47,619 nt of DNA from Actinomycetes bacterium (GTDB lineage Bacteria > Actinomycetota > Acidimicrobiia > Acidimicrobiales > SZUA-35): NCBI GenBank assembly GCA_024280015.1, contig JAJRQY010000119.1, positions 1 through 47,619 of the forward strand, read 5' to 3'. Under the pieces are notes generated by a model. The model was not told where the DNA came from and did not search any database. It worked only from the letters and a program-made list of their open reading frames with translations. Both the position numbers and the translations under genes were made by a program. Below, piece by piece: positions 7,370 through 34,041 of the stretch (position 1 is the first letter of the stretch; each line of letters begins with the position of its first letter).

Positions 7370-7987
7370 GTGAGTAACGATGTTGACCAGCCCGAATCAT
7401 CTGGTTCGGAACACCACCTGACTAGCAAACCGGGCAGCGGGGAAAGTAGTGGGGGCAACGCCGTTGCGTTGGCCATGTTCGACGCCAAGCTCAAGTCGAT
7501 GGCGGACGCGCAGCAACAGAAAGCTGGGCGCAAGAACATGTGGTTGGCCCATCATTGGCCCGAGCACTACGCCGAACGTTGCACGGTCATTGGCGGTCGA
7601 CACGTTTGTCGCCGTTGCGCAGCTCTCTATCCGTTGGGACTTCTGGTTGCCGTCCTGGCGACCTTCGACATCGTTCCCTGGCCCGGAGCACTGGACCCAT
7701 GGGCCATCTGGATCCTGTCCCTTCCGGCGACTGTTGCCTACTGTGGCGAAGCGATTGGGGTTATTCGTTACTCGGCGAAGGTCCAGGTCAGTACCACCTT
7801 GATTGCCGCACTGGCGTTTGGCCGAGCACTCGGGTATGAGTTCGAGCAGAGGTGGAGCCCAGAGTTCTGGGGACCGATCTGTTTCTTTGGTCTGATCTGG
7901 TTCATGTTCACGGCAACGGGCATGGCGCTACGGAAAAAGCGTGGCCAACACCACGCTCACCAAGCAAGTAGCCAGGACAACAGCTAG
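7370..7987 (+). CDS. DUF2085-like membrane protein
   Basis: The 205-residue product starts with a hydrophilic Ser/Gly-rich part (about 1-60). It then shows HHWPEHYAERCTVIGGRHVCRRCAALYP, which resembles the conserved Cys-x-x-Cys and YxG region of DUF2085 membrane proteins. About three or four hydrophobic segments follow (roughly 85-105, 112-130, 140-160 and 165-185), and the tail is basic and His-rich. The function is unknown; Cys/His spacing suggests metal binding. The GTG at 7370 is the only reasonable start. The stop lies in a three-copy tandem repeat shared with the end of cobS, which converges. Confidence 0.65.
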   Translation: MSNDVDQPESSGSEHHLTSKPGSGESSGGNAVALAMFDAKLKSMADAQQQKAGRKNMWLAHHWPEHYAERCTVIGGRHVCRRCAALYPLGLLVAVLATFDIVPWPGALDPWAIWILSLPATVAYCGEAIGVIRYSAKVQVSTTLIAALAFGRALGYEFEQRWSPEFWGPICFFGLIWFMFTATGMALRKKRGQHHAHQASSQDNS

Positions 7988-8032
7988 ATCAGGACAGTAG
8001 CTGGATCAAGAGAGCAACTAGATCAGGACAGC
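7983..8032. repeat. Three-copy imperfect tandem repeat (about 17 bp) over two stop codons
   Basis: CTAGATCAGGACAG occurs at 7984-7997 and again at 8018-8031. A weaker middle copy (CTGGATCAAGAGAG) lies between them, giving a period of about 17 bases. The first copy contains the TAG stop of the DUF2085-like gene and the last contains the stop of cobS on the other strand. Confidence 0.7.
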
Positions 8033-8755
8033 GACTCCGGTTAGCAGTACCGCGCACTCTGAGACCTGTTCGACCGCACCAAGAATGTCACCGGTCGCTC
8101 CGCCAATCTTGCGGACGGCCCAGGCCGAAACCACGACGCCGGCGGCAACAACAGAGGCAACGACAGCGGGAGCCAACACCCCAAAGGCGACTATCGCACC
8201 GATCAACCCCAAGCCAGCAGCAACCATGGTCGGAACGAAAGGCAACGTCTTTCCGTAGTCAGCCCCCAACCCTTCCGCGCGGGCCGATGGAAGGATGGCC
8301 ATGACAACGACGGCGGCGGAACGAGCCATCACATGACTGGCAACAATCACCAGCGCAGCCGTCGAACCGGAGAGGGTCAAAAGGGCCGAGAACTTCAAGA
8401 GTGAGATCAGGACCAGCGACAGGACTCCGAACGTACCGTGGCGAGAGTCATGGAAGATTTCCATCCTCTGTTCACGGTCCCAGCCGCCAGCCAAGGCATC
8501 CATGGAGTCCGCCAGGCCGTCTTCATGCAGGCCACCAGTCACCAAAGCCGTCCCGATAAGGCTCAGGGCTGCACCAATAGCTGGGGTAAAGACTTCGCTT
8601 CCAGCCCAGAACGTTCCGGCGCCCAAGCCACCGACCAGTAGGCCAACCACCGGGAAGTAGGGGACGGATCGAGCGATTGCCTCTTGGTCCGACGGGTGAG
8701 CCCCACCAGGTAATCGGGTTAGGAAGGCAACCGCATGCCGAAACGAAATGATCAT
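8018..8755 (-). CDS. cobS: Adenosylcobinamide-GDP ribazoletransferase
   Basis: This polytopic membrane protein of 245 residues joins adenosylcobinamide-GDP to alpha-ribazole, the last step of cobalamin assembly. The family signature is clear: HEDGLADSMDALAGG followed by DSRHGTFGVLSL, with Asp and His residues that bind Mg2+. Hydrophobic segments follow at about 110-130, 135-155, 175-195 and 200-220. Its ATG overlaps the cobU stop by 4 bases, which points to translational coupling. Length is typical of the family. It is the last gene of the MBL-cobO-cobU-cobS operon. Confidence 0.94.
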   Translation of the reverse strand: MIISFRHAVAFLTRLPGGAHPSDQEAIARSVPYFPVVGLLVGGLGAGTFWAGSEVFTPAIGAALSLIGTALVTGGLHEDGLADSMDALAGGWDREQRMEIFHDSRHGTFGVLSLVLISLLKFSALLTLSGSTAALVIVASHVMARSAAVVVMAILPSARAEGLGADYGKTLPFVPTMVAAGLGLIGAIVAFGVLAPAVVASVVAAGVVVSAWAVRKIGGATGDILGAVEQVSECAVLLTGVAVLI

Positions 8756-9321
8756 GGGGAGTCGGCCTGAGACATTCCCGAGCGCAGCGTGTCCAGTACC
8801 TGCTCACGTGAAGCAAGAGGAAGCAACTGTCCGGCCATCACGAAGTACCCATGGTCGAGACTGGTCGCCAGGGCTTGGTTCACTCGGCCCTGGATGTCTC
8901 GAAAGGATCGGGACAGGGGATCACCCGGCACAATTCCGAGACCGACCTCGTTGCTGACGGCAATACTTGGACCCGATCGACTGGCCAAGGCTTCCGCCAG
9001 GGCTCGGCCTTGGCATCCGATCTCGGTCACATCGTCGCCTCGCACAAGCAAATTGCCGAGCCAGACGGTGACGCAGTCAACGAGCACGATCTCGCTGTCC
9101 GGCACATCATTGACGGCCTCGACCAGGTCATAGGGCGCCTCAACCACCGACCAATCTGCTGGTCGGTCTTGCTGATGCCGGCGGACTCGTTCTCGCATCT
9201 CGTCATCGATCAGCTCGGCCGTCACTACCGCGGTGACGGGCAGTCCCAACCCCGTTGCCAGGTGTTCAGAAAGAGCGGACTTCCCCGAGCGGGCACCACC
9301 GAGAAGAAACGTGCTCGCCAC
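8752..9321 (-). CDS. cobU: Adenosylcobinamide kinase / guanylyltransferase
   Basis: The 189-residue cytoplasmic enzyme phosphorylates adenosylcobinamide and then transfers GMP to it, making the substrate of CobS. Visible motifs are the P-loop LLGGARSGKS (about 6-15), the RRHQQDRPADWSVVEAP block that holds the guanylylated His in relatives, and VDCVTVWLGNLL. The start is GTG at 9321, overlapping the cobO stop by one base (TAGTG), and its end overlaps cobS by four. The length matches CobU/CobP. Confidence 0.94.
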   Translation of the reverse strand: MASTFLLGGARSGKSALSEHLATGLGLPVTAVVTAELIDDEMRERVRRHQQDRPADWSVVEAPYDLVEAVNDVPDSEIVLVDCVTVWLGNLLVRGDDVTEIGCQGRALAEALASRSGPSIAVSNEVGLGIVPGDPLSRSFRDIQGRVNQALATSLDHGYFVMAGQLLPLASREQVLDTLRSGMSQADSP

Positions 9322-9968
9322 TAGTAGTCGATGCCCTTCTTGGCCACGATTCCTGAGTCAAAGGCATGCTTGATGTTGGTCATCTCGGTCACCGTGTCGG
9401 CGACCTCAACGACCTTGGCGTGCATGTCACGCCCTGTCAGAATGACACTGGTCTTTGATGGGCGACTCTTGAGCGTGCCGACAACCTCATCCACGTCTAT
9501 CCAGTCCCAGGTCATGGCATAGCTGATCTCATCCAAGACGATGAGCCGGTGCTCCCCCGCCTCAATCAGGGCTTTTGCCTTCGCCCAAGCTCCAGCAGCG
9601 AGAGCAGCACTCTCGTCTAGGTCATCAGAGTCCCAGGTGAAGCCATCACCCTCGGCGTACCAGTCAACACCCAATTCTCGGCAAATCTTTTCTTCTCCCA
9701 CCTGCCAGTTCCCACTCTTGAGGAACTGGACCACGGCTGTTGACCATCCCCGTGCGACACCACGAATCAGAGTGCCAAAGGCCGCCGTCGATTTGCCCTT
9801 ACCGTGTCCCGTATTGACCAGTACCAGCGAGGAAGCAACTGTGCGCTTGGCCTGGCCGACCGCGCCATCCTCATCAGGCTTTTCCCCCGCGTCTCCATCA
9901 ACTGTCTCGGTTGGGGGCTTGTCGGTTGGGGGTTCTGCCGCCGGTGCAGTATCTAAGTTTTCAGCCAT
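9321..9968 (-). CDS. cobO: Cob(I)yrinic acid a,c-diamide adenosyltransferase
   Basis: The 215-residue enzyme moves the adenosyl group of ATP to the cobalt of corrinoids. Its ATP-binding loop is VNTGHGKGKSTAAFG, followed by VVQFLKSGNWQVGEE and the LDEISYAMTWDWID block of the CobO/BtuR/CobA family. The first 45 or so residues are a Pro/Glu/Asp-rich tail (for example PAAEPPTDKPPTE) that the family normally lacks and that is probably disordered. The ATG overlaps the end of the MBL gene by 8 bases, so translation of the two is probably coupled. It may also act in corrinoid salvage, since no early corrin-ring genes are in the window. Confidence 0.93.
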   Translation of the reverse strand: MAENLDTAPAAEPPTDKPPTETVDGDAGEKPDEDGAVGQAKRTVASSLVLVNTGHGKGKSTAAFGTLIRGVARGWSTAVVQFLKSGNWQVGEEKICRELGVDWYAEGDGFTWDSDDLDESAALAAGAWAKAKALIEAGEHRLIVLDEISYAMTWDWIDVDEVVGTLKSRPSKTSVILTGRDMHAKVVEVADTVTEMTNIKHAFDSGIVAKKGIDY

Positions 9969-23949: not shown

Positions 23950-24045
23950 CTCGACATAGTGTCTGGCCTTTGACCCAGATCCAACCACGACCGCGGTATC
24001 AACCCCATGGATTGACCAATCAATCTTGTGTTAATATTGAAGTAT

Positions 24046-24825
24046 ATGAAGGCAGGACAACCACAGAATGCTCGGTCCGAAGGCGGATCTCACAAAAGAG
24101 GAATCGTCGTCATCACGTTCCTAGCCGCAGCAGCAGTCCTATTGGGAGTCTCCGGAGCCTTGGCCCAAACCCCAGATCCACAGATCGACTGCACGGTCGA
24201 AGTGACCTACGGCGAGCCGATCGTTTGCTCCACCAGCGGGGTCGATGAAGAGAAAACGTCCATTGACTGGGGAGACGGCACATCAACGCCGACGAGCACA
24301 AGCGCCCACTCACCAAAGGCCGTCGGCGCGGTTATCATCGCCCTGGTTGCCGAGGATGGACGTATTCTGGCTTCAAGCACGAGCAAGATCTCGCCCGACC
24401 TCGTCCTGAGTTGCGAAACCGCAGAGACTGCCGATGTCTACGAACTGGCAGCAAGTTCGACGGCCGAATCAGGCTGGGACTACGTCTATATCGAGACTGC
24501 AACCGGAACGCAGATCCTTCCGGGCGACGCGGGCTACCCATCAGGGTTTGATCTCACGGGTTTTGAGCGTGTCCAGTCTGGCCAGGCAGATGTCACCGGA
24601 AAGTGCACGGCCACCTCCCAAGCCGGAGAAGACCTTGATGGCGACTTCTCCATGACGATGACTTCAGAATGGGAAGAAGCACGATCAGTGCCCTTCGGCT
24701 ACATCGTTCCATGGACATCGCACCACTGGGCTGGAACCCAGCCTGGCGAACTTGAAGCCACCGTCACCATCGACGGCCTAGAAGCCTCCGAACGAATCGG
24801 CATCTACTTCGCAGGTTGCGGCTGA
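24046..24825 (+). CDS. Exported protein with a PKD-like segment, unknown function
   Basis: The 259-residue product has a basic N-terminus and a signal segment (about 20-41, ending near GALAQTPD) followed by a beta-rich mature part. The stretch SIDWGDGTSTPT (about 72-83) has the W-x-x-GDGT turn typical of PKD domains, and the mature part has six cysteines that could form disulfides. No catalytic motif is seen. The ATG at 24046 is preferred to the earlier frame opening at 24028. It is divergent from the nucleotidyltransferase gene (96-base gap, AT-rich) and converges on the large GGDEF-EAL gene across a strong hairpin. A surface or adhesion role is plausible but unproven. Confidence 0.65.
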   Translation: MKAGQPQNARSEGGSHKRGIVVITFLAAAAVLLGVSGALAQTPDPQIDCTVEVTYGEPIVCSTSGVDEEKTSIDWGDGTSTPTSTSAHSPKAVGAVIIALVAEDGRILASSTSKISPDLVLSCETAETADVYELAASSTAESGWDYVYIETATGTQILPGDAGYPSGFDLTGFERVQSGQADVTGKCTATSQAGEDLDGDFSMTMTSEWEEARSVPFGYIVPWTSHHWAGTQPGELEATVTIDGLEASERIGIYFAGCG

Positions 24826-24863: not shown

Positions 24864-27800
24864 CTATGAGCTTGTCAGAACCTTGTTGTCATCAGAACCA
24901 TCGGTGCTACGGGAACCCTTCGAAGACTTTGATGCCTTCGACTTTCGCTTGGACTGGGCCTCAACCTTGTTCTCATCAACGACCTTGCGCTTGGACCTTG
25001 CCGAACGCTTGCCTGGTCCAAGGAACCGGCTACCGGAAGTTGCGACCAAACGGGCACGTCCCTCAGCAATATTCGTAGTCAGAAGCTTCTCCGCAGCAAT
25101 ACCGGACATCCAGTCCAAGGAGGTGAAGCGAGGGTCACCCATGGCACGACTGAGAGAGGCCGCTTCGACAATTCGGCCAGGTGAATAGTCCCGGTGTTCG
25201 GTACTCATTCGTCCGTCGTAAATGCGATAGACATCACCGTCAAGCAAGGCGATGGCGTAGGCCGCTAACTCGCCATCGAGGCGCAAGGTAGCAATCTCAA
25301 CTTCCCATTCTTCGTTTCCACCTTCAACAACTCGACGCCAGAACTCGCGCTCGGCCGGACGGTCAAGGTCAGAGTTACGACGAGCATGGCGGTCACGAGA
25401 AACGTGGACCGCTTCGACCTCATCAATCAGCTCAGAAGTCAGGGCACGACCACGGTCGAAACCAATAGTCATCTCGATGCCTTCGGCCTCAATCCTGGCC
25501 TTGGCCCGACGAAGAGCCTTACGCTTGGACTTGGTCAACACATCATCAATATTGTGCGAGGTCGAGAAGACCACTCGAGGAATACGTAGCTCAGGCAGTG
25601 ACTGACCATGGTCCAAAATGTCAACCAGATGCTGCATGACAGGATCCATCTCCGGAAGCTGTTCCAGGTCAACAGACCAGGGGGCCGGAAGTTCTTCGAT
25701 TGCTGAGACAATGGCCTGGGCAAGAGCTCGAGCTGAGTCGCCGTCGCGTGCGGGCAACGAGGCGAAGAGGGAACTGCCATGACCCATGGTCACGATGGTG
25801 GTTCCTTCTGGACGCTGATCGGTTGCCAACAAGGCGTAGGCCATCAGCTGCTCAGTTTGAGCCGAACGAACCTCGACCATGAGCGGGGTCCACTGCGGGA
25901 ACGACTCGGCCCAGTGCGATAGCCATGGGAAGGTCGCCATCAGGGGCAAGCCGAGATCCTGATTCATCTCATCGATGTCGTGGACAACCGAACGGATCTC
26001 ATTCATGCCGTTGTGCACGCTGGTGTAGAAGACACGCTCTTGGATCTGCTCTGAGGATCGACGCCAGGCTTCCAAAGGCTCGGTCTCATCATCAACATGC
26101 TCTTTCAACAGAGCAGTCAAGGCCGGGGCAGGAAGTGGGCGACAGTAGTAGAAGCCCTGGGCCTGGTCACAACCAAGCTTGCGCAGTTCTGCTGCCTGGT
26201 CGGCGTACTCAATACCTTCGGCCACGGTGTAGGCACCGAGGGCCTTGGACAGGTTTACGATTGCTTCGACCAGAGCCGAAGAGGTTGAAGACCGGTGAAG
26301 CTCACTGATGAAGGAACGGTCAATCTTGATGGCATCAACCGGGAACGACTTCAGGTAGCTCATGGAGGAGTAGCCGGTGCCAAAGTCATCAATGGCGAGC
26401 TTCACTCCGACGGTCTTGAGCTGTTCGAGAATTCCAGCACTGCGCTCGGCATCGACGGCCAACATTGACTCGGTGATCTCAAAGACAAGCTTGTTGGCGG
26501 CAAGGCCGGAGTCACGCAACACACTGGTCAGGGTGTTGACCAGCTGCAGATCGTGCAGTTGGCGAACCGAAAGGTTGACCGTGATGCTTATGTCTTCGCA
26601 CCCTTCGATCTTCTGCCAGATGGCGGCCTGCGTGCAAGCCTCTTTCATGACCCAATCGCCGATGGGGACAATGAGTCCACTCTCTTCGGCCAGGGGGATG
26701 AATCGGTCGGGGGCGACAAGTCCACGCTCGGGGTGCTTCCAACGAATCAAGGCTTCAACCAGTGAAACCTTGCCCGTCTTCAAATCAAAGATTGGCTGGT
26801 AGTGAAGAACGAATTGATCTTCGTCAATACCCCGTTGGAGGTCAGCCTTGAGGTCAAGGCGCTCAACGGCTTCTTCGTACATAACGGGTTCGAAGAACTC
26901 AAACCGGCCCTTACCGCGTGTCTTTGACAGATACATGGCAACGTCAGCATTGCGAAGAAGCGTGTCGACGTCAGCGGTGTCGTCAGCATCCATGGCGATG
27001 CCGATGCTGGCCGAACCTCGCACACTGCGAGGTCCCAGATCAATCGGCTCACCCAGAGCTTCCAGTGCTCGACGGGCTACCGCTACAGCATCTCGACGGT
27101 CAGCGGCAGACTCGAGGAGGATGGCGAACTCATCGCCGCCGAAGCGAGCCACCGTGTCACCGGGGCGGATACAGCGACCAAGGCGGCCAGCAATTTCGGC
27201 CAACATTTCATCACCAGCGGCGTGACCAAGACTGTCATTGACGGTCTTGAAGTCATCCAAATCGATGAACAGAACAGCAACGTGGCCAGGACCATCATTG
27301 TTGAGAGCGAGCTCGGTCCGCTCAGCAAACAGAACCCGGTTAGAAAGGCCGGTCAGAGAATCGTGTTCGGCATCGTGCCGCAAGCGATCCTTGCCTCGCT
27401 CGATGGCCTTCATCAGGGTGAAGACTCGTACCAAGATCAAGAGGAATAACAAGGCCGAAGCAATGATGGTGACCACACGGTCTTCTTGGGTACCCCACAG
27501 CAGGTCGATCAGGGGCACACTCAAGGTGGCGACGAACATCAGTACCAGCTGGGTTGCCGTCAACTTATCCTGGTTGTGCAGATCGCTGACCTCATGTTCA
27601 CCAGCATGGTGCAAGGCTGCGGCCGCGAAGCCAGCATAGAAGAATAGCCAGAACGCATCAATCGGTGTTCCGGTTCGGAAGGTCTCGTTGCTGAGCATGA
27701 TGTTGTAGCCAGTATCAGCAATGGCCAGCGAGCCAATGGCGGCAACAATGAAGGCGAATGGTGGGTGCTTGAGCTGGGCGGTCACAATCAATCGGGCAGC

Positions 27801-28316
27801 CACGGCCAGGAGCGCAACGTCCATGACCGGGTAGCCGAAGGAAACAGCCAGAGAAAGAATTGGCTCACCGCTGACGTACAGATTGTCAACAAACAGCACC
27901 CAGAGGGCACCAAACATGGCGATACCAACCACGGCAGCATCAATGAAGCTGGCGGTATTGCGACCCGGGGTAAGTGAGCGGACCATCTTTGTCAGCCCGA
28001 TAATCATCAACGGATACATCATCAGGTAGAAGAAGTCGGCAACGTTGGGGAAGGGGACGTTGTCCGGATTGGCCAGCTCCAACATGTAGTAGATGATGTC
28101 GGCAATCAAGAACGAGCTCAGACCCGCGGCGAACCACATCCACGGCTCCTTGGCCTCAGAGTGATTCCTCTTCACCCCATAGAGCAAGAAGCCAACGGAC
28201 AAGAGGCCAAGGCCGTTGTACAACACCAGCTTGGAGGTCGGGGTGTTCGGCAAGGCGAAGTACAACGTCGTGAGCACGACGGCGATTCCTAACCAGATCT
28301 TCCACATGTTACGCAT
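24864..28316 (-). CDS. Membrane GGDEF-EAL protein with C-terminal BioF2/FemAB-like acetyltransferase domain
   Basis: The 1150-residue product (ATG at 28316; residues counted from it) has four parts. Residues 1-306 hold about nine or ten membrane segments. A diguanylate cyclase domain follows with RFGGDEF (GGDEF at 393-397) and an I-site RPGD (384-387) five residues before it, so product inhibition is expected. An EAL phosphodiesterase domain has VEALIRW (EAL at 521-523), DDFGTGYSS (643-651) and AEGIE (about 699-703), so both active sites look intact. Residues about 745-1105 resemble a BioF2-like (PF13480-type) acetyltransferase: KRKALRRAKARIEAEG and IYDGRMSTEHRDYSPGRIV are characteristic. A Lys/Ser-rich tail ends the protein. 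I know no common architecture that joins these. An ATG at 28307 is an alternative start; the frame to 28391 has no homology. Confidence 0.88.
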   Translation of the reverse strand: MRNMWKIWLGIAVVLTTLYFALPNTPTSKLVLYNGLGLLSVGFLLYGVKRNHSEAKEPWMWFAAGLSSFLIADIIYYMLELANPDNVPFPNVADFFYLMMYPLMIIGLTKMVRSLTPGRNTASFIDAAVVGIAMFGALWVLFVDNLYVSGEPILSLAVSFGYPVMDVALLAVAARLIVTAQLKHPPFAFIVAAIGSLAIADTGYNIMLSNETFRTGTPIDAFWLFFYAGFAAAALHHAGEHEVSDLHNQDKLTATQLVLMFVATLSVPLIDLLWGTQEDRVVTIIASALLFLLILVRVFTLMKAIERGKDRLRHDAEHDSLTGLSNRVLFAERTELALNNDGPGHVAVLFIDLDDFKTVNDSLGHAAGDEMLAEIAGRLGRCIRPGDTVARFGGDEFAILLESAADRRDAVAVARRALEALGEPIDLGPRSVRGSASIGIAMDADDTADVDTLLRNADVAMYLSKTRGKGRFEFFEPVMYEEAVERLDLKADLQRGIDEDQFVLHYQPIFDLKTGKVSLVEALIRWKHPERGLVAPDRFIPLAEESGLIVPIGDWVMKEACTQAAIWQKIEGCEDISITVNLSVRQLHDLQLVNTLTSVLRDSGLAANKLVFEITESMLAVDAERSAGILEQLKTVGVKLAIDDFGTGYSSMSYLKSFPVDAIKIDRSFISELHRSSTSSALVEAIVNLSKALGAYTVAEGIEYADQAAELRKLGCDQAQGFYYCRPLPAPALTALLKEHVDDETEPLEAWRRSSEQIQERVFYTSVHNGMNEIRSVVHDIDEMNQDLGLPLMATFPWLSHWAESFPQWTPLMVEVRSAQTEQLMAYALLATDQRPEGTTIVTMGHGSSLFASLPARDGDSARALAQAIVSAIEELPAPWSVDLEQLPEMDPVMQHLVDILDHGQSLPELRIPRVVFSTSHNIDDVLTKSKRKALRRAKARIEAEGIEMTIGFDRGRALTSELIDEVEAVHVSRDRHARRNSDLDRPAEREFWRRVVEGGNEEWEVEIATLRLDGELAAYAIALLDGDVYRIYDGRMSTEHRDYSPGRIVEAASLSRAMGDPRFTSLDWMSGIAAEKLLTTNIAEGRARLVATSGSRFLGPGKRSARSKRKVVDENKVEAQSKRKSKASKSSKGSRSTDGSDDNKVLTSS

Positions 28317-28430
28317 GCAGTGCTTATCGGTTGCTGGCCGCCCAAGATAAGGATTCGACCAAGATGATTCTCGAGCCCGGATGCTCTGCAAGCCGCCTAG
28401 CTACTGGACGCCCGACTACTAGGAGCCTGC

Positions 28431-29440: not shown

Positions 29441-30325
29441 GTGGATCCAAACATTCGCTGGCTACGGCGAAAAATACTTCGCTACCTAACCAAGCGCCTC
29501 GTGCTGGAATTTATTGTTCTCGTTGTCGCGCTCTGGAGCTTGTTGACCTTCCTCGGTTGGAGCCAGGTCGAGGTCGCTCCCTTTGCCATCGTTGCCGCCC
29601 AGATCATCGTCCTGCTCCGGGCCACCATCAGCTTGAGCACGAACCCCCTCAGCCAGCAAGCCGTAACCCAGATCATCGATAACCCGACCGTCCTCATCCG
29701 TTCATCCAGCGACCTCACAGGCCTTGGCAAGATCGGAGTCGAGCTTGGTCTGTTCGAGTTTCATCCCGTACTTTCCGCCTCGTTGCCCTTCGATGACACG
29801 ACAGCACCATCAGAGGATGGATCGACCGATGACGGGCTCATCCTCTTCGACGTGTTCCAGTCACGCGACGGTCACACCACCGCTGCCCTCGGGCGCCAGG
29901 GAGGAACCATCACCCTCATTTCACAACTAACAGATGGCAGGATCCTCGCCTCAACCGATCTACTAATTCCGCCATGTGAACGCCTTATTGTGAACCAGGT
30001 AGCCGGTGGCGACCTTGAAAGCCTCGTTCGGACTCACCGTCGCTTGCTGGACGGACTCACTCGACGAGGGATCCATCTACGCCCCGCACCACCGACTCTC
30101 TTGTCGGACCTTCTCGCAATCGAACACGACTGCTACCAGCAGCTTGGCCCGTTCTTCGCACCATTCTTGGCCCTAGATCCTGTCCGACGACCGTTTCGTC
30201 TCGCTCTGCGGATCGACGCATCCCAGCTGCTCGGAAGGAGCGGTCGTCGGCCATCGGCCACCCAGAATGGCACCGTGAAGGCGCAAACAACTCACACATC
30301 CCCGAATCTTTTACAGAATGCTTAG
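29441..30325 (+). CDS. Membrane-anchored protein of unknown function
   Basis: The 294-residue product has two hydrophobic segments near the N-terminus (about 22-39 and 46-62) and then a soluble part of about 230 residues without catalytic motifs that I recognise. The soluble part contains a Ser/Asp-rich stretch around 117-130 and a basic C-terminus. The start is the GTG at 29441, chosen because the frame has no better start. Nearby are two large c-di-GMP proteins, but no direct link is visible. It ends 74 bases before the tRNA gene. I cannot assign a family. Confidence 0.62.
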   Translation: MDPNIRWLRRKILRYLTKRLVLEFIVLVVALWSLLTFLGWSQVEVAPFAIVAAQIIVLLRATISLSTNPLSQQAVTQIIDNPTVLIRSSSDLTGLGKIGVELGLFEFHPVLSASLPFDDTTAPSEDGSTDDGLILFDVFQSRDGHTTAALGRQGGTITLISQLTDGRILASTDLLIPPCERLIVNQVAGGDLESLVRTHRRLLDGLTRRGIHLRPAPPTLLSDLLAIEHDCYQQLGPFFAPFLALDPVRRPFRLALRIDASQLLGRSGRRPSATQNGTVKAQTTHTSPNLLQNA

Positions 30326-30583: not shown

Positions 30584-30781
30584 AATGTAGTCACTGGGCC
30601 ACGCAGACTCGAAAACATCGAGGAAGCAGCGCAAGTCATAGGAGAAGTATCACGACGCGAAACCCGGGCTTCTGGTCTGGGTCTCTTTCGTTTTGAGATG
30701 CCTTGACCTGTCGCTTGACCCATCCGACTTGTTCCTTGTCCATGCAGTAAGGAATTGTGGTCTCCGGCCGACTATAAGGAG

Positions 30782-33316
30782 GTGTCCAGTGATCACCAGC
30801 CCCCAATCCCCGGGGCCTCACAGGATCGGGGGCTCCACGACCGCTCGCAGTTTCGCGTCCGGATCGTCATTGCTTTCAGTCTCGCCATCCTCGCGCCCTT
30901 CGTCCCACAGGTCGGCCCACATCGACTAGTCGTCGGAGCGATGCTTGGTCTCATTGCATTGCCAGCACATTTCGTCGTTCGCCATCTCACAGGCAGCCCA
31001 AATCCCAACGGCTGGCTAGATCTCATCGCCGTCACTGCCGCAAGCGCGACAGCAATTATCGAACCTTCAGCATTCGTTCCAGCATTCTTCTTCCAGACCA
31101 TCCATCTCATCGGAGCTATCCCCTTCCTCACGACCCGCTGGTCCTACTGGCTCGGGGGTGGTTCCTTCTTCTCGATGTTGGTGATCGCCATCGTCTTGCC
31201 TGTTGATTCTGTTGCCATACCACTGCTCATCATTGCTGCGGTTCTACTCCCCGCCGTCTTTCTAGGGACCACTCGCAAGCGACTCAAGGACCGCTGGAAA
31301 CAGGAACGAGTCGCCGCCATCACCGGATCACTGCCGACCGCTCTCTGGGAAGCTGACCTGACCACTGGAGACATGCTGACCGTCTTGGGTGCGCCAGAAC
31401 GAGTCCTGTTCACCACAGTCGACTGCTTGGTCGGGAGCGGCTATTTGGATCGAATCGACCCCCTGGATCGAGAACCATTTGAGAGCCGGTTCTCCAACGG
31501 CGACCGGGGCTCCCTGACCTATCGTTTTCATGGAGATGATGGCGTCGAACGTTGGCTGACCGATCAGGTGGAGGAAGTGGAAGTCGATGGGGAAAAGGTC
31601 CTCCGCGGAATCACCATCGATGTCACCGAACTACATCGGACTCAAGAAAGCCTGGTGCGACAGAGCAAGATCATCGAACGCATGTCAGCGACCACAATCG
31701 TTCTTGCCAACGATGCACTCCCAATCGCCACAATCATCTCCATCAGCGATCCCCGCCGAGATCTCCTCGATAGTCCCCAGGCCGCAGTTGGCCTGCCCTT
31801 TGGCGCGGTTTTTCCCGAGCTGGCCAAACAATCCTGGCTGGCTGTAGGGATCGAGCAGCTCGAGAGTTCGAGGACCATCCATGCCGGCCCCCAAGAACTC
31901 CACCGCCCCAACTCTGACTCACTCATTGTCGATGTGCAGCTCTTCTCCATGCCCGACCAAACGACAGCTCTCATCATCGAAAACGTCACCAGCCGGGAAC
32001 GGGCCCAAGCCACCATCCGATTTCAAGCACTCCACGACTCGCTCACTCATCTCCCGAACCGAACCGCGCTCATGGAGGAGATGGAACACTTCCTGGAAGA
32101 AGGCAGCCCATTCACCTTCGCCATGCTGGATCTGAATCGCTTCAAAGCAGTCAATGACACACTCGGCCATCTCACTGGCGACGAACTCCTCCAGATTGTA
32201 GCGACCCGTCTCAGTAACTCAGTCGGCGAAGGCGACCTGGTCGCGCGATTGGGCGGAGATGAGTTCGCCATCATCTTCTCTCACCAACCGGACTCCGAAA
32301 TTGACGAACGGCTGGATGCCGTCATTCGCGCCTGCCGTGATCGAGTCTCCATTGACGGGTCCTCCATCTCCGTTGGCGTAAGCATTGGTCTTGTTTCTGC
32401 TCCCGACTCTGACTCAGACTCAGAGACCCTCCTTCGACTAGCCGATGTAGCAATGTATGACGCCAAGCGTTCTCGAAGCACGGTCCGGTACTACGAAGCC
32501 AGCTTTGATACCTCACCCGAGCGGCTGGAACTCATGGCCGAGCTGGACCAAGCGTTCGCCACCGGCCAATTCGTGCCCTACTTCCAAGCAAAGTGCGACA
32601 CCCAGTCTGGGGCCATCATTGGAGCTGAAGCGCTAGTCCGGTGGGAGCACCCCACCAACGGCACTCTTGTCCCTGCCCAATTCATGGAACTCATCGCCGT
32701 CTCGGGACGTTTTGATGACCTGCTCCGAGCCGTGCTCTGGCCGTCCGTCCAAGCCATTTCCCAGATGCCTGAGCATCTACACGTTGCCATCAACTTGTCG
32801 GCCGTCAATCTGCTCAAGACCGACACCACCATTCTCTTTCGCCAGGCCATCGAGACCTTCGATATCGCACCAGCACGACTCGCCGTCGAACTAACCGAAT
32901 CAGAGTTCATGGATGACACCGGCAGGGTCGAAGCATCCCTTCAAGAGTTAGCCAAGTTAGGGGTCGGAGTTGCCGTCGATGACTTTGGCACCGGCTACTC
33001 CTCGCTTTCCCACCTCCGAAGTCTGCCACTCACCGAATTGAAGGTAGATCGCCAGTTCGTGTCGTCGATGGCCCACTCTCCACCGGATCGTGTCGTGGTG
33101 CAAGCACTCGTTGGTCTTGCACATGACCTCGGCCTAACTCTGACCGCCGAAGGGGTAGAAGATCAGGTGACTCTGAATCTCTTGCGAGAAATGGGTTGTG
33201 ACACCGTTCAGGGATACTTCTTCGGGCGACCGATACCCATTGCGCAGTTCAACCGTGACCATGTCGAGCAGAGACTGCTTTCGCACGATCCAAGCCTCGG
33301 CTCCGGCACCGCCTAA
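30782..33316 (+). CDS. Membrane GGDEF-EAL protein with PAS-like sensor region
   Basis: The protein is about 844 residues. Positions below count from the TTG at 30755. About five membrane segments lie at 35-170. A PAS-like segment with PAC end (GVERWLTDQVEEVEVDG ... RGITIDVTE) spans about 185-295, and a second PAS-like region follows to about 415. The cyclase domain has RLGGDEF (GGDEF at 500-504). The expected I-site Arg is missing: the matching positions read GEGD, so product inhibition is unlikely. The EAL domain has AEALVRW (EAL at 625-627), DDFGTGYSS (742-750) and TAEGVED. Both activities look possible. The start is uncertain: GTG 30782 directly follows AAGGAG, and TTG 30755 follows AAGGAA; spacing is too short in both. 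The protein probably turns over c-di-GMP at the membrane. Confidence 0.87.
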   Translation: MSSDHQPPIPGASQDRGLHDRSQFRVRIVIAFSLAILAPFVPQVGPHRLVVGAMLGLIALPAHFVVRHLTGSPNPNGWLDLIAVTAASATAIIEPSAFVPAFFFQTIHLIGAIPFLTTRWSYWLGGGSFFSMLVIAIVLPVDSVAIPLLIIAAVLLPAVFLGTTRKRLKDRWKQERVAAITGSLPTALWEADLTTGDMLTVLGAPERVLFTTVDCLVGSGYLDRIDPLDREPFESRFSNGDRGSLTYRFHGDDGVERWLTDQVEEVEVDGEKVLRGITIDVTELHRTQESLVRQSKIIERMSATTIVLANDALPIATIISISDPRRDLLDSPQAAVGLPFGAVFPELAKQSWLAVGIEQLESSRTIHAGPQELHRPNSDSLIVDVQLFSMPDQTTALIIENVTSRERAQATIRFQALHDSLTHLPNRTALMEEMEHFLEEGSPFTFAMLDLNRFKAVNDTLGHLTGDELLQIVATRLSNSVGEGDLVARLGGDEFAIIFSHQPDSEIDERLDAVIRACRDRVSIDGSSISVGVSIGLVSAPDSDSDSETLLRLADVAMYDAKRSRSTVRYYEASFDTSPERLELMAELDQAFATGQFVPYFQAKCDTQSGAIIGAEALVRWEHPTNGTLVPAQFMELIAVSGRFDDLLRAVLWPSVQAISQMPEHLHVAINLSAVNLLKTDTTILFRQAIETFDIAPARLAVELTESEFMDDTGRVEASLQELAKLGVGVAVDDFGTGYSSLSHLRSLPLTELKVDRQFVSSMAHSPPDRVVVQALVGLAHDLGLTLTAEGVEDQVTLNLLREMGCDTVQGYFFGRPIPIAQFNRDHVEQRLLSHDPSLGSGTA

Positions 33317-33363: not shown

Positions 33364-34041
33364 TTGTCACTGTTCATTCGCAGATGGCTCCTACGATTCA
33401 TCTTCCTCGCTGCCTTCGCTGCCATTATCTGGTACTTCGTACTCCCTCGAATTAGACCACCCCTGCACGAGGGTGAACGCTACGGGATTGACGTCTCGCA
33501 TCATCAGGGAGAGGTTAACTGGGAGGCTGTCGCCGGCGACAACATCACCTTTGCCTACATCAAGGCCACCGAGGGCGAAGACTTGGTCGATCCGCAGTTC
33601 GGACGCAACTGGCGACTCGCCGGTTCCGCAGGTCTTGACCGTGGCGCCTATCACTTCTTTACCGCCTGCACCTCGGGGGCAACCCAAGCCGAGAACTTCC
33701 TTCGAGTCGCCCCACCCCAGGAGGGCGTCCTGTCCCCAGCGGTTGATCTTGAGTTGGCCGGCAACTGCCTCAACCATCCATCAGCTTCTGTGGTCGCCAA
33801 CGAACTCGACGTCTTTCTCCGGTTGATCGAGGAAGCGTGGCAGCTTCCACCTCTGGTGTATATGAGCGATGAGTGGGAAGAGCTCTTTCCGACGTCGGAC
33901 CGGCTACATCACCAAATGTGGCGCCTCAACTACCCGTTCCGTCCGAGCAAAGAGTGGCAGATTTGGCAACTCCCGCCCTATGTAACCATCGACGGAATTG
34001 ATGGGCGCGTTGACCTTGATGTGATGGCCCAAGAGAAGTAG
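33364..34041 (+). CDS. GH25 muramidase (lysozyme), membrane-anchored
   Basis: The 225-residue product has an N-terminal membrane anchor (about 10-30), then the GH25 fold: YGIDVSHHQGEVNWEAV (about 40-56), FAYIKATEGEDLVDPQF, GAYHFF, PAVDLELAGN and a C-terminal WQIWQLPPYVTIDGIDGRVDLDV. The Asp and Glu residues at these places are the catalytic and binding residues of the family. The enzyme cleaves between MurNAc and GlcNAc in peptidoglycan. The start is TTG at 33364, because the anchor begins right after it. Unlike secreted phage lysozymes it seems tethered to the membrane. A NamZ-type exo-muramidase gene lies a short distance downstream on the other strand. Confidence 0.88.
   Translation: MSLFIRRWLLRFIFLAAFAAIIWYFVLPRIRPPLHEGERYGIDVSHHQGEVNWEAVAGDNITFAYIKATEGEDLVDPQFGRNWRLAGSAGLDRGAYHFFTACTSGATQAENFLRVAPPQEGVLSPAVDLELAGNCLNHPSASVVANELDVFLRLIEEAWQLPPLVYMSDEWEELFPTSDRLHHQMWRLNYPFRPSKEWQIWQLPPYVTIDGIDGRVDLDVMAQEK

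Follow-up and report, generated by a model that had tools for sequence, protein, structure and literature searches.

The window analysed here is a 47,619-nucleotide (nt) stretch of contig JAJRQY010000119.1 from an uncultured actinobacterial lineage, and the gene in question joins domains for making and breaking cyclic di-GMP (c-di-GMP) to an acyltransferase-like C-terminus (Table 1). The gene is one uninterrupted open frame of 1150 amino acids (aa) on the reverse strand, from 28316 to 24864; a longer TTG start is available at 28391, while conservation in the alignment of relatives starts near the ATG at 28316. A fusion of a GGDEF-EAL protein with an acyltransferase-like part was the core of the original prediction for this DNA, and it is real: all three domains score above their Pfam cut-offs within the open frame, and the two motifs quoted for the acyltransferase part lie at aa 931-946 and aa 1033-1048. 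In 11 of 11 relatives fetched by a scan with the C-terminal part, the GNAT stands in one long frame with GGDEF-EAL, and the second GNAT is under purifying selection, which together rule out a frame artefact or chance read-through. The architecture is real, conserved and well supported. The domains, the intact GGDEF and EAL motifs, the FemX-like fold of the model, the conservation, the single fused group, the split operon form and the transporter linkage described below were all computed directly.

Table 1. Features of the fused gene and of the two genes upstream of it, in window coordinates
Feature	Coordinates	Strand	Basis and remarks
Fused gene, 1150 aa, membrane domain - GGDEF - EAL - double GNAT	24864..28316	-	Open frame, Pfam domains, orthologues
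N-terminal membrane domain, aa 1-310	27387..28316	-	Model, hydropathy; common to split-form proteins
GGDEF domain, aa 316-470	26907..27371	-	PF00990 148 bits; RxxD I-site and GGDEF motif intact
EAL domain, aa 491-727	26136..26846	-	PF00563 255 bits; all catalytic motifs checked are present
Double-GNAT acyltransferase-like part, aa 739-1102	25011..26102	-	AlphaFold model m23892ce1ac18, fold matches, invariant residues in alignment A2
Second GNAT, PF13480 (Acetyltransf_6), with DGR strand and SPG loop	25089..25529	-	65.7 bits at this place
Lys/Ser-rich tail, aa 1099-1150	24867..25022	-	Alignment, dN/dS by segment; not conserved
EamA/DMT-type transporter, 294 aa	28431..29315	-	PF00892 53.7 bits; ~0.1 kb upstream of the fusion, co-directional
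Protein without Pfam match, N-terminal hydrophobic stretch	29441..30325	+	Homologues in 10 other loci (L020 and L021 counted as two)

The two c-di-GMP domains had been described as apparently intact, and their scores and motifs, including the I-site, bear this out (Table 1). All 19 tabulated sequences retain the GGDEF and EAL motifs, with variants at locus L055 (GGDDF, ECL and one change in a metal-site motif), and the RxxD I-site is found in 16 of the 19, its arginine being missing in L022, L051 and L052. By domains and motifs the protein is a member of the GGDEF-EAL turnover class, with predicted cyclase and phosphodiesterase activity.

For the C-terminal part, a search against PF13480 and FemAB profiles and a structure prediction aimed at a double GNAT fold had been suggested as checks, and both agree with the assignment. 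PF13480 (Acetyltransf_6), which we take to be a BioF2/CelD-like GNAT family, matches the whole protein over aa 930-1075 with 61.2 bits against a cut-off of 22, and it matches 14 of the 14 members of profile A1. The FemAB_like family PF04339 reaches 13 bits in the window protein, below its cut-off of 27, and PilZ is not among the Pfam matches of the protein up to E 0.1. A classical FemAB enzyme for peptidoglycan bridges was set aside, as PF02388 (FemABX) has no match in the protein (up to E 0.1) or in the genome (E 0.001).

The AlphaFold model of aa 739-1102, built from 14 aligned relatives, has a mean pLDDT (predicted local distance difference test) of 85.5 and a pTM (predicted template modelling score) of 0.82, and shows a FemX-like tandem GNAT. 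Foldseek returns FemX entries as its best matches (E 5.9e-13), and a second structural aligner places FemX 6snr at Z 21.1 (301 residues, 4.0 Å); overall, the FemX matches lie at Z about 21 and 3.8-4.0 Å over ~300 residues, with ~12% identity. Because identity is so low and sequence searches of Protein Data Bank (PDB) chains gave nothing useful (best E 0.28 with the single protein, 0.21 with profile A1), this likeness concerns the fold alone. FemX/FemA proteins (PF02388) thus offer the best solved fold for the window GNAT, but differ in sequence family and in the signalling domains fused to the window protein. Together, family and model support a PF13480/FemAB-like double GNAT, for which acyl or aminoacyl transfer is predicted. 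Residues invariant among the 19 sequences of alignment A2, which includes stand-alone genes and leaves out L021, are R974, R980, S982, E1007, R1012, the LAAY strand, D1026, R1031, D1034-G1035, P1046-G1047 and D1068 (numbers are A2 positions plus 738).

Selection was estimated by segment in five fused-gene pairs as the ratio of nonsynonymous to synonymous substitution rates (dN/dS). The second GNAT (aa 926-1098) gives 0.026, 0.041 and 0.116 in three of the five pairs, synonymous sites being saturated in the other two, while the first GNAT with the linker ranges from 0.046 to 0.331, and GGDEF and EAL from 0.027 to 0.26; all of these are rough estimates, most pairs being close to saturation at synonymous sites. 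The second GNAT is under purifying selection comparable to that on the GGDEF and EAL parts. By the same measure the Lys/Ser-rich tail is weakly constrained or unconstrained. It had been listed as a feature of the protein, but only the window protein and L018 have it in a long form, and its conservation is poor.

By hydropathy, hydrophobic stretches abound in the first 300 residues, and a model of aa 1-310 (pLDDT 78.4) shows ~nine long helices followed by one helix running into the GGDEF domain. This membrane domain matches no Pfam family in the window protein, with weak DUF (domain of unknown function) matches in some other members, and has no PDB match at E 0.001 or below. It is common to 14 of the 15 fused forms and to three split forms (122 to 155 bits in the latter). 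With the window sequence as query it was not found at E 0.001 in L055, in L057 or in paralogue frames from 14 places of the window's genome, in which profile A3 of the membrane domain has one match at 1e-8. Three rows were left out of A3 (L021, L022 and L055), L022 for an atypical frame start, with homology only from about window aa 79. More distant copies occur in other genomes of the order, of which some (e.g., G396, G398, G002) had no GNAT match in the A1 search.

A survey for the same fused architecture, likewise suggested as a check, found the full fusion at 15 loci of Acidimicrobiia-type genomes, the window and near copies included, all of one group. When the genome collection was scanned with the C-terminal part alone, 11 loci were returned, all 11 full fusions, from metagenome-assembled genomes of Acidimicrobiia, Acidimicrobiales, Acidimicrobiaceae or Actinomycetes. 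The single-protein search matched 13 of 395 genomes of the class at E 0.001, mostly weakly; profile A1 matched 18 of 397 genomes of the order at 1e-10, and profile A2 matched four of 396 genomes of the phylum at 1e-8. Twelve of the 18 order matches read as fusions, with frames of 1055 to 1308 aa, several of them on the same contigs as the 11 loci of the C-terminal scan (the place in G658 matches L021). Three are split (G138, G451, G468; the 1059-aa frame of G451 runs from stop to stop, with the actual GNAT gene behind the EAL gene), G399 has its GNAT beyond a flippase gene, and two (G571, G484) are cut by contig ends. Loci L056, L048 and L050 are also cut by contig ends and were classed as neither fused nor split. 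The longest frame, a divergent 1308-aa fusion in L055 (8141-12064), has its EAL and GNAT separated by a Pro-rich linker of ~170-200 residues.

A GGDEF-EAL tree of 32 rows (32 of 33 matches kept, L085 being too short) included 13 of 17 other EAL places of the window's genome and the second GGDEF-EAL protein of the window. All 15 fused rows group together (100/99), as do the three split rows (98/97), and the tree gives no supported order of the fused versus the split group or of either versus most paralogues. The split form is carried by three genomes of another family (f11), where a membrane-PAS-GGDEF-EAL gene is followed by a separate GNAT gene after 61 nt in L029 and 14 nt in L054, with the same order in L053. 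These GGDEF-EAL proteins have a homologous N-terminal membrane domain, with PAS (not GAF) added before GGDEF, and because this domain is shared they look orthologous to the fused ones. The coupling of the GNAT to c-di-GMP turnover proteins, proposed from the window alone, is evolutionarily stable, occurring as one fused group and as a split operon with the same membrane domain. A further arrangement is seen in L057 (6866-11978), where genes for a PAS-GGDEF-EAL protein, a Polysacc_synt (Wzx-type) flippase and a PF13480 protein lie on one strand; the N-terminal membrane part of this GGDEF-EAL protein differs from that of the fused form.

The upstream neighbour of the fusion is an EamA/DMT-type transporter gene (Table 1), and an EamA homologue stands beside the unit in 15 of the 19 loci compared. 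Eleven copies lie immediately upstream and on the same strand, the L052 copy is upstream in divergent orientation, the L026 copy downstream in convergent orientation, and in L029 and L054 the gene directly follows the GNAT gene on its strand; the copies of the window, L029 and L054 are confirmed by Pfam. No EamA homologue was found near the unit in L057, and the contig of L053 ends too early to show one. As other neighbours mostly change, and EamA has switched sides, we read the linkage as functional. Homologues of the protein at 29441-30325 also recur by the EamA-fusion pair, mostly divergent from EamA and co-directional with it in L020, L021, L023 and L025.

The neighbours of stand-alone relatives of the GNAT were scanned as well. 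In L070, which lies outside the class (E 1.7e-85), two tandem PF13480 genes (7602-9910) stand in a cluster with Wzy_C, Polysacc_synt, a glycosyltransferase and an asparagine-synthase-type gene. The relative in L072 adjoins a Polysacc_synt_3 (Wzx-type) gene, and the one in L030, of the same class, adjoins Wzy_C and a low-molecular-weight phosphatase gene. Polysaccharide genes stand by the relatives in L057, L070, L072 and L030; none was seen among the genes scanned by L071 or by the window gene. The guess that the acceptor is cell-wall or lipid material fits these neighbours, with EamA in most loci and Wzx/Wzy-type genes by several relatives.

The coupling of c-di-GMP to an acyltransferase had been put forward as unestablished, which does not hold, because two systems are precedents for the concept. 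According to its published description, HfsK (CC3689) of Caulobacter crescentus is a c-di-GMP-binding effector with a tandem GNAT whose nearest solved fold is FemX, and its authors propose that it acylates the holdfast polysaccharide and that c-di-GMP frees it from the membrane and inactivates it (PMC5362036). HfsK is described as soluble and membrane-associating, with c-di-GMP binding helped by a 25-residue C-terminal extension (with an Arg pair) and by R112, and genetic coupling of its homologues to surface-polysaccharide systems is reported (PMC5362036). As far as that description goes, the two proteins share the tandem GNAT with FemX as nearest fold, the c-di-GMP link and the membrane association, but the window GNAT is part of one protein with membrane-bound domains for c-di-GMP synthesis and degradation, and an EamA transporter gene lies beside it. 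The tail of the window protein was considered as a mimic of the HfsK extension and dropped for its narrow distribution. PixB of Myxococcus xanthus, described as PilZ-PilZ-GNAT (PMC8316039), likewise links c-di-GMP and a GNAT in one polypeptide; its PilZ domains read c-di-GMP, whereas the domains of the window protein make and break it, and the window GNAT is a FemX-like PF13480 tandem.

In a partial literature search, mostly of titles and abstract beginnings, no report of a GNAT fused to GGDEF-EAL was found, and the novelty looks to lie in the fusion of the GNAT to the enzymes of c-di-GMP synthesis and degradation. The fusion suggests that the chemistry of the cell surface may be under the direct control of local signalling. 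It also bears on the question of how outputs are kept separate in cells that have many GGDEF/EAL proteins, the window's genome having 19 EAL matches. As the output enzyme is covalently joined to the signal-turnover enzymes, and a natural split version exists for comparison, local signalling could be tested in one purified protein. Control of surface-polysaccharide tailoring by c-di-GMP, as in HfsK, would be extended to an uncultured actinobacterial lineage, and the locus points to EamA as a partner. The interest of the system is this physical union of signal turnover and output, with its natural split control and conserved transporter partner.

We lean, with modest confidence, towards a membrane-tethered transferase that is gated by its own local c-di-GMP turnover and modifies an envelope glycan or lipid precursor moved by the neighbouring transporter. 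The N-terminal multi-helix domain would sense a cue and set the balance between GGDEF (synthesis) and EAL (breakdown), and the resulting local c-di-GMP state would shift the tethered double GNAT or change its activity. At the inner membrane face, the FemX-like GNAT may then acylate or aminoacylate an amine on a precursor of the envelope; the likeliest acceptor would be an exopolysaccharide or glycan unit linked to a lipid. DMT-type proteins include flippases of lipid-linked sugars (ArnE/F type), and the EamA/DMT transporter, or the Wzx-type flippase in L057, could carry the product or precursor across the membrane. We infer the gating of the GNAT by c-di-GMP, the donor, the acceptor and the role of the transporter. 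A stronger version, which we hold to be possible but somewhat doubtful, is a self-contained membrane machine. A single polypeptide would do its own sensing, form and degrade a local c-di-GMP pool and thereby switch a FemX-like transferase that tailors an envelope precursor, in concert with a DMT-type flippase dedicated to it, and would need neither a diffusing messenger nor a separate receptor; if this is true, the split operon form would be a looser version of the same module.

Several observations weigh against the gated transferase. The evidence for its mechanism is entirely genomic, and no c-di-GMP site was recognised in the GNAT, for which no dedicated test was made. In the divergent fusion of L055 the basic RKxLRRA motif is missing, and the membrane domain has diverged so far that neither the window sequence nor profile A3 at 1e-8 finds it; the N-terminal region aligns only with a full-length profile. 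No EamA homologue lies near the fusion in L051 or L055, and the two neighbours of the L051 fusion that were scanned look like genes of amino-acid metabolism. EamA is a large and versatile family, with 29 domain matches in ~17 proteins of the window's genome, so that the substrate cannot be read from the family. Around the window gene, ten proteins were scanned and no polysaccharide polymerase, flippase or glycosyltransferase was found, one protein being nucleotidyltransferase-like; among four genes scanned in L071 there was no polysaccharide gene, only a hexapeptide acetyltransferase a few genes away. The loci L020 and L021 are near copies, and L021 was left out of A2, A3 and the EamA tblastn search.

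The GNAT might instead act as in MprF (PF09924), placing an amino acid (from aminoacyl-tRNA) or an acyl group on a lipid such as phosphatidylglycerol, with EamA flipping the product and c-di-GMP setting the rate. MprF is a membrane protein with a C-terminal double GNAT and works with a flippase function, which is its own N-terminal part; the window protein has its membrane part ahead of GGDEF-EAL, and the transporter is encoded separately, by the EamA gene. MprF-type chains match the GNAT model at Z about 16-18, seven of the 14 A1 members are weakly similar to PF09924 (LPG_synthase_C; best E 0.0018), a search of the genome for PF09924 gave no match at E 0.001, and a membrane anchor with a transporter neighbour would fit. 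However, the window protein itself shows no PF09924 (LPG synthase) similarity up to E 0.1, PF13480 matches are far stronger, FemX outscores MprF on the model, and several stand-alone relatives neighbour polysaccharide genes. We regard lipid modification of this kind as improbable.

The fusion and the operon linkage show coupling and not its direction, and the GNAT could in principle be the sensor, with binding of substrate or donor (acyl-CoA or aminoacyl-tRNA status) tuning GGDEF and EAL and so reporting metabolism to c-di-GMP. This seems unlikely to us: R974, R980, S982, E1007, D1034, P1046 and G1047 are invariant across A2, stand-alone genes included, as for a working enzyme, and the N-terminal membrane domain is already available as a sensor, the usual place of sensor domains in the GGDEF/EAL protein class. 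It is also conceivable that the GGDEF-EAL part with its membrane domain serves only to bring the GNAT to the membrane and to a protein partner, its turnover leaving the transferase unregulated. The activity of HfsK is described as needing membrane association (PMC5362036), and the long Pro-rich linker in L055 would weaken allostery; yet a mere tether would need neither the GGDEF and EAL motifs retained throughout the 19 rows nor the purifying selection on these domains, and the split form keeps the partnership without one. We give such a passive role little credence beside the gated transferase.

Three further genes of the window lie in the neighbourhood. A secreted-looking 265-aa protein without a Pfam match (24028-24825) is convergent with the fusion and has no homologue in the other loci compared. 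On the other side, ~2.4 kb from the fusion, lies a second GGDEF-EAL protein of 853 aa (30755-33316), an ordinary member of the class that shares GGDEF and EAL behind a hydrophobic N-terminus but ends after EAL, and a distant paralogue on the tree, without the transferase. Adjoining it is a gene (33364-34041) for a lysozyme-type protein of glycosyl hydrolase family 25 (GH25), whose N-terminal part has a hydrophobic stretch.

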